A DNA stretch of 64,000 nt, from assembly GCF_008831285.2 (NCBI RefSeq), contig NC_045149.1, positions 15,092,578 to 15,156,577 of the forward strand, read 5' to 3'. A program made the position numbers and the translations under genes. This document shows positions 131 through 25,400 of the stretch, piece by piece; positions within the stretch are counted from its first letter, which is position 1; each line of letters begins with the position of its first letter. This DNA comes from Nymphaea colorata (taxonomy: Eukaryota; Streptophyta; Magnoliopsida; Nymphaeales; Nymphaeaceae). The notes under the pieces were generated by a model. That model saw nothing but the letters and a program-made list of their open reading frames with translations. It ran no database searches and was not told the DNA's origin.

Positions 131-1960
131 GATGCATCAAGTTGGCCGTGCATTGGTTGTATCTGTTAGTCGGCCACTTATTTCAATTGCATCTAATTGA
201 GATTTTTAACTTGATGGAGGAGACGTTGCTTCATCAACATCCTCGAGCAATTCCCAGGTCTTACGGGGACTGTTTCCTCTATTGTTGTAGAGGGTTCATC
301 GCCACTTTTGCGTTCATATTTACATGATCACACAAACTCTTAAAATTGACCATTATACCGATGCATCAAGTTGGTCATGCATTGGTTGTGTCTACTAGTC
401 GACCATTTATTTCAATTGCATCTAATTAACATTTTCAACTTGATGGTTGGGGCATTGCTTCATCAAGTTCCTTGAACAGTTCCCAGGTCTCACGGGACTG
501 TTTCCTCTCTTGTTGTATAAGGTTCATCGGATCTTTTATGCTCCTAATGAGATATCACACATAAACTCCTAAAAGTGACTATTATACCAATGCATCAAGT
601 TGGCCATGCATTGGTTGTGTCTATGAGTCAGCAAGCTATTGCAATTACATCTAATTTATATTTTCAATTTCGTGGTAGGGTCACTGCTTCAGCAAGTTCT
701 TATAGCAATTCCCAGGTCTCGCGGGAATGTTTCCCCTTCTGTTGTACAGGGTTCATCGCATCTTTTGCGCTCATAGTTAAATGATCACACATAAATTCTT
801 AAAACTGACCATTATACCGATGCATCATGTTGGTCATGCATTGGTTGTGTCTAACAGTCAACCAGCATCTAATTGACATTTTCAATTTCATGGTAGGGAC
901 AGAGCTTCATCAAGTTCTTTGAGCAGTTCCCAAGTCTCACGGGACTGTTTCCTCTCTTGTTATAGAGGGTTCATCGCATCTTTTGCAATCATAATTAGAT
1001 GATTACACATAAACTCCTCAAATTAACCATTATACAAATGCATCATGTTGGCCATGCATTGGTTGTGTCCATTAGTCCGCCAATTATTTCAATTGCATCT
1101 AGTTGACAATTTTAACTTGATGGAAGGGACGTTGCTTCATCAAGAAGCTTGAACAATTCCCAGGTCTCACGGGAATGTTTCCTCTCTTGTTGTAGAGGGT
1201 TCATCGCATCTTTTGCAATCATAAGTAAATGATCACACAAAAACTCCTCAAACAGACCATTATACCGATGCATCAAGTTGGTCATGCATTGGTTGTGTCT
1301 ATCAGTGAGCCTATTATCTCAATTGCATCTAATTGTCATTTTCAACTTAATGGTAGGGGCATAGCTTGATCAAGTTCCTTGAGCAGTTCCTAGGTCTCAC
1401 GAGACTGCTTCCCCTCTTGTTGTAGAGGGTTCGTCACATCTTTTGCACTCATAATAAGATGATCACACATAAAATAAACTACTCAAACTGACCAATATAC
1501 CGATGTATTAAGTTCGTTATGCATCGGTTGTGTCTATTAGTCAGTCGTTTCTCTCAATTGCATCTAATTGACATTTTTAACATGATAAAGGGGACGTTGT
1601 TTCATCAAGAGCCTTCAGCAGTTCCCAGGTCTCACGGGACTGTTTCCCCACTTGTTGTAGAGGGTTCATCGCATCTTTTGTAAGCGTAATAAGATGATCA
1701 CACATAATCTTCTAAAACTGACCATTATACCGATGCATCAAATTGGCCATGCATTGGTTGTGTCTATGAGTCAATCAGTTATCTCAATTGCATCTAATTG
1801 ACATTTTCAACTTGATGATAGGGACATAGCTTTATCAAGTTCCTTGAGCAGTTCCGAGGTCTCACGGAACTGTTTCCTCTTTTGTTGTAAAGGTTTCATC
1901 AGATCTTTGCACTTCTAACGAGATGATCACACATAAACTTCTAAAACTGACCATTACAGA
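131..1960. repeat. Satellite higher-order unit 1, eight monomers
   Basis: Complete eight-monomer unit of about 1830 bp. The first monomer is marked by the variant GCCGTGCATTGGTTGTATCT, which recurs at about 1974 and 3569. Monomer 7 (about 1502) is the most divergent, with GATGTATTAAGTTCGTTATG in place of the usual anchor. It serves as the reference unit for the shortened second copy. Confidence 0.75.
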
Positions 1961-22416: not shown

Positions 22417-25400
22417 TCAAAGGTTGTTGCAAACTGCCTCTGTGAATTCGGATGTTGTTGCAGTGCCCCCAAGATCACGAGTCCTGTGATTTCCATCTGC
22501 AATGGTCCTGAGGATGGCTTCATGAATTCTGTCTGCTTTATCATTGAGACCCAAATGCCGCAACATGGATACTGAACTCAAGAGTAGGGCTGTAGGATTT
22601 GCAAGGTTCTGCACTCGTCCAAGCAAACAAACAAAATGATAATTATGTCTTCTTCATAACGTCACAAAAATTATGCCAAAACTTTGAGAAGACCAAAAGG
22701 TGACAACTGACAAGTGGGCAGACTAACACCAACGGGTAACTGAAATTTTACTAAAAGCTGCAAGATTCCTTGATAACATTAAAATGACCTCGATTATGAA
22801 CAGCTGTGCGAGCTGCAGTACTCCTAAACTCAATACATTGGACATGGTCCTCTATGAATGTATTCAAATCGGAGGTGAAGATAAGACATACACAAAATTA
22901 AATCACTTGATCTTGCGAAACAACTTCAGAATATGTGAGGTGTCATGGACAGCCTAAGGGCAGCCTAAGTCAAGAACTAATTCTGCAGAGATTTGAAATG
23001 TAGCAACAGCGAGACACAAAAACCAATGTGATGAGATGAAACTGGCTAATACATAGGCATGTACATCTACAGAGTTCTCACCTTGCCAGCAATGTCAGGA
23101 GCTGAACCATGCACAGCTTCAGCCAGTGCAATACCACCCTCACCAATATTACAGCTGAAAAAAGAAACAAATGAGACTGGTATTTGCAACTCTGGAGCAG
23201 ATAAATGTTGAAAAATATGTACCTTGGCGTCAAACCCAATCCTCCAATCAATCCAGCACAAAGATCACTGATAATGTCTCCATAAAGGTTTGGCATCACC
23301 AACACATCAAAAAGAGAAGGATTTCTCACAAGCTGAACATACAGATCACTGGATTAATGTTTATTTTAAACACACAATGAAAGTGTCCGCTCAACTCAGA
23401 GTAACTAAGGTACAATGCAAATTTGACAAATTGAAATACAATTGTAAGAAACTAAGAGATGGCTTGATGAAAAATAAGCAAATATGCAGTATATAAATAG
23501 CGTGTGAACATTTTTGTTCTCATCATCATAGAATTAGTAACAACATATAGCGTACCATCATACAGCAATTATCAATGATGACTTCCTCATAATTGATCTC
23601 TGGATACTTTTCTGCTACCGCTCGGCAGCACTGCAACGAAAGAGAATGGAAAGCTAAGTGAGATCAAAGAAGAGAAATCATCATCTCGGAAATGGAAAGC
23701 AAGTATAAATGTACCTTGAGAAAAAGTCCATCAGTCTTCCTCATAATGTTGGCTTTGTGTATGGCAGAAACTTTTTTTCTTCCATGGGTTTTAGCATAGT
23801 GGAAAGCATATTCTGCTACTCTCAGACTAGCTTGTCTGGTAATGATTTTGATACTTTCAACAACTCCTCTAACAACCTGATTACAAAACAAAAAACTAAC
23901 TGAAAAGCTCGAAAAAGAGGGCAAGAGAAGACAAGAGACAGCCATTGCTCAACAAAATTACCTGATGCTCCAGGCCACTGTACTCGCCTTCCGTGTTCTC
24001 ACGAATTGTCACAAGATCAACATTATCATATCGGGTTTTGTAGCCAGGGAGGCTGTAGCAAGGTCTGACATTGGCATAGAGACCAAGTTCTTTCCGCAAG
24101 GTAAGATTCAATGATCTATGGCCCTTTGCAATCGGTGTAGCCATTGGCCCTTTTAAGCCAACACCATTCCTTCTCACAGATTCTAAACTTTCCCAAGTCA
24201 AAAAACTTTGTGTCCTAGGGTCAACTTGGACACCCACAAAATGTTCTTCCCATTCAATGGGCACTTCAGCAGCATTAAACACCTAAAATAGTGAAAACTA
24301 ATCCCAGGTCAATCAAGTAATCCATCCACATAGCTACAATCTTTATGGTGAAAACTCAGAAATCCACCGCAAATCATTGGAAAGATAACTCATGCAATAA
24401 GGAATGGGACTGATGTGATGGCATGTCAAATATGAAATATCTCAGTCTAGATACTAGAATCCTTTAATCTGAAAACAAATTTCACAGCACCTTCCAAATA
24501 CCTGGAAAAAATACAACTGCAGCAATGAAAGTTAATAATTTCATTTAAAAATGCTTTTATTCATTTATTCCACAAATTATTCTTAGATTTACCCAAAAAG
24601 GTCAGGCCACTCCCACAAAAAAAAATTCCTGGTATACACATGAACACGTGCTAGTTGATATTTTGCACGGGTTCTTCCTGACAAAATTTTAGGAAATCAT
24701 AGGCAATCTAGGAGATTTCTAGTAAAACACCATGTGCAACTAATCATCATCGCACTAACAGGAAAAAACAGAACAAGAACTGTTGCAAGACACTGAACTA
24801 ACAAAATAAAAGGTAGACCAAACTCCTCATCAGAATTTACATGCAATCTCTAACACCTAAGTAACTAGACGATAACTTGAGAAGTCCTCCAGATGCTCTG
24901 GATACGTGATAGAGAAAACAGCAAAAACAATCAGCCATGATGTTTCACGAATCAGCCAAAGCATTTCCTCAACTAGGATCGTGGGCTTTCAGTGCATTGT
25001 CTGCACTAACACCCTCATTCCAAAATGATGCGCTACTTTGTTAACAGAAAGAAGTGACAACTAACTGTGGTATTCAACTAATGTGCAAAAATATCAAAAG
25101 GAACATAAATTGATACAGGTAGATAACGTATAAAGTTGTGATGCGAGATCATCAGCATACTAATTCGTGGACAATAGAATCAAAGAGCGCCAAAAAGATT
25201 AAAAGAAAACCTCATCGTTTGCAGTTTCATAAGTACCAATGCAGACAAATAACTCTACCACTTGGATAATGTTCAACAGATTCCGAAACTGGGATCACAC
25301 ACTGCATGGTAAGAAATCATAATCTATGCCTTAAAATTTGAAGCCGACATGCCATGAGAAATTAATTGATCGAATTTCGTTAGAATCAGCTCCATCTGAT

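Follow-up and report, generated by a model that had tools for sequence, protein, structure and literature searches.

False duplications that arise during assembly have been described in some detail for vertebrate genomes. The Vertebrate Genomes Project, in its account of homotype duplications, counts 'differing consensus quality', resulting from fluctuation in coverage, among the marks of such copies (PMC8081667), and the legend to Extended Data Fig. 5b of that paper presents dovetailing contig ends that were scaffolded into tandem copies, a type named 'overlapping sequences at contig boundaries'. Ko et al. (2022) describe gaps lying between duplicates, as well as short unplaced scaffolds that are themselves such duplicates and contain sequence errors (PMC9516828).

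The window analysed here, a stretch of 64,000 nucleotides of Nymphaea colorata DNA, carries an 11.75-kb block on each side of its only run of N, and we consider it very probable that the two copies are one locus written twice: a homotype false duplication, and thus an assembly artefact of the described kind with no biological feature behind it. In common with the type as set out in PMC8081667, one locus is present on both sides of a contig boundary, contigs that dovetail stand in tandem, the length is on the scale of a read and consensus quality is unequal; with the cases described in PMC9516828 it shares the gap between the duplicates, a short error-bearing unplaced scaffold (contig C336, 18 kb) and a false gene fragment. 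However, the cases in PMC8081667 were recognized with the help of reads, k-mers and both optical and Hi-C maps, and the decisions described in PMC9516828 rest on read depth and linked reads, whereas those made here rest on consensus sequences, including that of the third contig. A mismatch within a satellite is also an extra here relative to the type in PMC8081667. The features of the window that bear on this are as follows.

1–3726, + strand: rightmost part of a ~16-kb array of a 230-bp satellite, within the left contig
292–12047, + strand: copy A, closing the left contig; 99.52% identity to 12148–23894; private indels cluster at 4847–11126
6490–6717, − strand: 5′ fragment of a dehydrogenase gene, copy A (PF00180)
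10584–12016, − strand: isocitrate dehydrogenase gene truncated at the gap, 3′ exons only, apparently a false copy (PF00180 at 10584–10763, 11377–11493 and 11708–12016; none upstream)
12048–12147, no strand: assembly gap, 100 N
12148–15568, + strand: 3,421 bp of the same 230-bp satellite, with which contig B opens
12148–23896, + strand: copy B, opening the right contig, which runs on rightward unbroken; private indels at A coordinates 345–5683
18324–18551, − strand: copy B counterpart of the 5′ dehydrogenase fragment (PF00180 positions 29–106)
22432–24273, − strand: the same exons together with an upstream exon at 23959–24273, the gene as it stands in B (PF00180; frames read)
24053–26171, + strand: partner, at 94%, of 18328–20438 (and 6494–8601) in what we take to be a genuine older duplication

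Alignment of 292–12046 with 12148–23894 by megablast gave an identity of 99.52%, with six mismatches and 48 indel events, and comparison of the printed ends showed that the final base of A, a C at 12047, corresponds to B 23896 if one extra difference in the length of an A run is allowed. The gap is therefore abutted on both sides by near-identical copies, A ending at 12047 and B starting at 12148, and an earlier note on this DNA, which had placed the same 11.8 kb at 292–12047 and 12148–23896 with ends exactly at the gap, was exact in its coordinates. Its further claim, that B carries on from 23896 what A lost at 12047, was borne out, the sequence of contig B going on beyond that point. A stops ~160 bp, in B numbering, short of the second member of the genuine 94% duplication.

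Over 734–12046 the two copies differ by 45 indel events and by no substitution; the substitutions, six in all, are confined to the satellite (A 405–733; window 12259–12586) and so to the first 439 bases of B. The indels are one base long in 47 of 48 cases, and 42 of them fall inside runs of at least two (29 inside runs of at least three), the six that fall outside counting against an overlap of contig ends. Seven places at which the earlier note had seen changes in run length (3990, 4041, 4265, 4756, 7200, 8260 and 8565) proved correct to within 10 bases (3988, 4031/4033, 4270, 4762, 7201, 8258 and 8565), and its description of the copies as differing, beyond the first 1.2 kb of B, almost only by one-base homopolymer changes holds approximately, given that the substitutions are confined to 12259–12586 and a dense burst of indels is over by ~13478. 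Genuine duplications provide the contrast: 6494–8601 aligned with 24053–26171 at 94%, with 106 mismatches and 12 gap openings, and a copy on C4, at 92%, showed 128 mismatches and 24 gap openings against B (for A, 129 and 21). The mix of indels and substitutions between A and B departs strongly from both of these (106:12 and 128:24; Fisher test, P = 2e-29 and 4e-27, respectively), and the differences look like uncorrected read errors rather than the outcome of evolution.

A third reading of the locus is provided by C336, an unplaced contig of 18,038 bp that holds one copy of the block. On its reverse strand, 3075–15111 corresponds to A 1–12046 and 3366–18038 to B 1–14695 (window 12148–26842), the order being satellite, then block, then past the point at which A stops and into the continuation found in B. 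A ends at the gap, and both B and C336 continue into a single right flank. To the left of the first base of B, C336 has 3,365 bp more, which is satellite almost to the end of the contig; the right end of A is absent there, although the printed order of the scaffold would place it in just that position. A sequenced junction, leading from the end of one unit to the start of the next, was not found in A, B or C336. When the assembly was queried with a 1-kb piece of the block, the near-identical copies were three, namely A, B and C336, the next being that on C4 (49 matches listed, 40 of 68 candidates scored), and the same three were recovered with a 1-kb piece from near the right end of the block and with a 2.1-kb piece from its middle, all candidates being scored in these cases. 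C336 is itself rich in private indels, a point to be set against an overlap of contig ends, and it fits the short unplaced duplicate scaffolds with errors that are described by Ko et al. (PMC9516828).

Using C336 as the arbiter of which copy holds a private indel, we could decide 46 of the 48 events, two being left undecided. The 24 indels private to B lie at 345–5683 (A coordinates), and the 22 private to A lie at 457 and then at 4847–11126 (21 of 22). A single cut at 4763 splits the two classes with only two of 46 misfiled, a separation equalled in none of 20,000 shuffles of the labels, and for the non-satellite part, with 21 A-private and seven B-private indels, a Mann–Whitney test gave P = 3e-6. 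Because the private indels of A and B are oppositely located, the errors of each copy gather on the side that faces the gap; with this placement as a proxy for read support, consensus quality is unequal between the copies. Were the tandem repeat real, reads would exist for the gap-side parts too, and the polarity of the errors therefore counts against that. Where a third reading of a locus is to hand, opposed private indels can thus help, without recourse to reads, to decide between a true tandem duplication and a false overlap.

The 230-bp satellite, in which the block begins, spans C12:15,080,308 to window 3726 of the left contig (~16 kb, within which the rows of the repeat finder leave two stretches uncovered), and the monomers are organized with a higher-order period of ~1.83 kb. 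Higher-order copies were compared by alignment, the neighbouring copies at A 1 and A −1827 being 98.3% identical and those at A 1 and C336 3075 98.2%. At six sites in 405–733, A is the odd one out; C336 agrees with B at all six, and for this reason we rejected the idea that the six substitutions are errors at the start of B. A and C336 differ at seven further bases in 1–291, and C336 is the odd one out at 323, 340 and 378. Aligned in register, the left flank of A matches C336 at 97.4% (57 mismatches), and another register is as good (97.9%, 59 mismatches); at only 97.4% in register, C336 was rejected as a clean leftward extension of A. Left of ~734, we read the consensus as mixed from neighbouring repeat copies, or the array length as wrong or allelic, and one of these has to be assumed if the contig ends overlap. 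The disagreement concerns the satellite only, and not the 11.3 kb beyond it. That the length of the satellite would be doubled, as the earlier note had supposed, is correct insofar as the array is inflated by ~3.4 kb, but this amounts to about a fifth of ~16 kb and not to a doubling. Related arrays, with identities of 76–79%, lie on C9, C29 and C453 among the matches listed (7 of 110 candidates scored), a listing in which the satellite's own place did not appear.

Two other accounts of the pair of copies were weighed. A on the one hand, and B with C336 on the other, might represent the two alleles of a single locus, set one after the other, a haplotype (heterotype) false duplication that would still be an artefact. 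The satellite left of ~734, where the difference is one of substitutions and B and C336 agree against A at the six sites, is in keeping with this; yet the 11.3 kb past the satellite stretch contain no substitution, which by the rule of three sets an upper bound of ~0.03%, and on that ground haplotype copies were not our first choice. The raised divergence between copies that characterizes heterotype duplications was not seen, with no substitution in 11.3 kb and six in the satellite stretch, and variants that could be specific to a haplotype, as judged from the consensus only, number none in 734–12046 and six in 405–733. When ten repeat copies were compared, moreover, B was found to share base 323 otherwise only with the copy at A 1, but bases 467 and 733 otherwise only with that at C336 3075, so that it sides with each of its supposed alleles in turn, and the polarity of the errors is unexpected of alleles. 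We regard the allelic origin of the copies as unlikely.

The second account is a real and very recent tandem duplication, mediated by the satellite, with a unit of more than ~15 kb that is too young to have gained substitutions outside the satellite, the gap hiding the remainder of the first unit and the junction. In its favour, a gap written as 100 N usually has a nominal length, and the divergence between A and C336 in their satellite flanks is close to that between adjacent higher-order copies, a pattern that unequal exchange could produce. It requires, however, that 11.3 kb be free of substitutions, that both ends coincide with the gap by chance, that the polarity of the errors be due to chance as well and that C336 be accounted for separately; in addition, a repeat search detected no 230-bp array in window 26500–64000. 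A true tandem duplication was rejected on the absence of substitutions in 11.3 kb, the position of the ends at the gap and the evidence of C336, and we hold it to be extremely improbable. The earlier note had proposed a probable artefact, produced by overlapping contig ends that were left unmerged, and this finds support in the lack of any substitution past 733, the ends coincident with the gap, C336 and the opposed private indels. What doubt remains stems from the reliance on consensus sequences and from the satellite.

An overlap of unmerged contig ends could have come about in the following way. Contig B begins inside the satellite array of near-identical higher-order repeats, and repeats (the satellite, and the 94% duplication) may have caused the contigs to break. 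The two contigs would overlap, end to start, by ~11.75 kb and, having gone unmerged, would have been set side by side with the 100-N filler, presumably by the scaffolder. Reads anchored in the left flank of A would correct the left part of A, and those anchored in the right flank of B would likewise correct the right part of B; few reads would then be available for the gap-side part of each copy, where correction would be poor and one-base indels would stay. Left uncorrected, the assembly would keep a false segmental duplication of 11.75 kb at 99.5% and ~3.4 kb of excess satellite, together with a false truncated isocitrate dehydrogenase gene by the gap and a doubled 5′ fragment.

Matches to PF00180 in B lie at 22432–22611, 23225–23341, 23556–23864 and 23959–24273, and A has counterparts of the first three only; the dehydrogenase exons given here are those that PF00180 matched. 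For the upstream exon (23959–24273), the nearest solved chains are alpha subunits of NAD-isocitrate dehydrogenase, and the top NCBIfam model is TIGR00175, a part match under the whole-protein cut-off. The earlier note had expected the counts of the gene, which it called IDH5, and of its fragment to be doubled. The 5′ fragment is indeed doubled but the gene is not wholly so, as judged by PF00180, the upstream exon occurring once and A having only 3′ exons. The scaffold thus appears to have a single copy of the gene with its upstream exon, to which a truncated 3′ part has probably been added falsely, with the 5′ fragment doubled. The stretches 18328–20438 and 24053–26171 align at 94.3%, with 107 mismatches and seven gap openings under a scoring that differs from that of the comparison with copy A, and on their sequence we regard them as products of a genuine, older event that duplicated the 5′ part of the dehydrogenase gene.

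A frame of 117 codons has stayed open in the 5′ fragment and gives a match to PF00180. The sequences that flank the fragment (16179–18323, and from 20436) are contiguous in the C4 copy, at 91.7% and 77%, and the fragment seems to interrupt a dispersed element; further copies of 16300–17300, at 78–92%, lie on C1, C3, C4 and C6 among the matches listed (40 of 68 candidates scored). A piece of dehydrogenase exon, 23557–23895, recurs over up to ~340 bp at 88–93% and with the same left edge on C13, C12 (at 206 kb), C14 (in two places), C2 and C3, as if it had been carried by a mobile element, and three longer copies of it, at 89–91%, are found on C10. Long unbroken matches to PF00180 at C166:4235–5059, with eight internal stops, and at C152:8778–9916 are possibly processed copies or foreign DNA. 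The doubled block also contains a 30/61-bp tandem repeat, at 9328–9710 and 21164–21550, which is akin to repeats in the C4 copy.

Five other unplaced contigs were sampled with one 1.2-kb piece each, three of which were repeat-rich while two had no near-identical second copy. None of the five thus repeats a unique, placed locus almost exactly, which lends no support to such redundancy as a general trait of the assembly. The unplaced contigs C29 (27517–45085) and C453 (8836–26395) have 17.6 kb in common (99.53% identity; 21 mismatches, 38 gap openings), and 17 of the 59 differences lie in the last 700 bases of C29. An 8-kb unit is present twice in C29 and once in C453, and this difference in copy number, together with the 21 substitutions, led us to reject the pair as a second clean case of redundancy. 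Arrays of a ~3.15-kb unit occur in several unplaced contigs (C100 and C500) and are almost identical from one contig to another.
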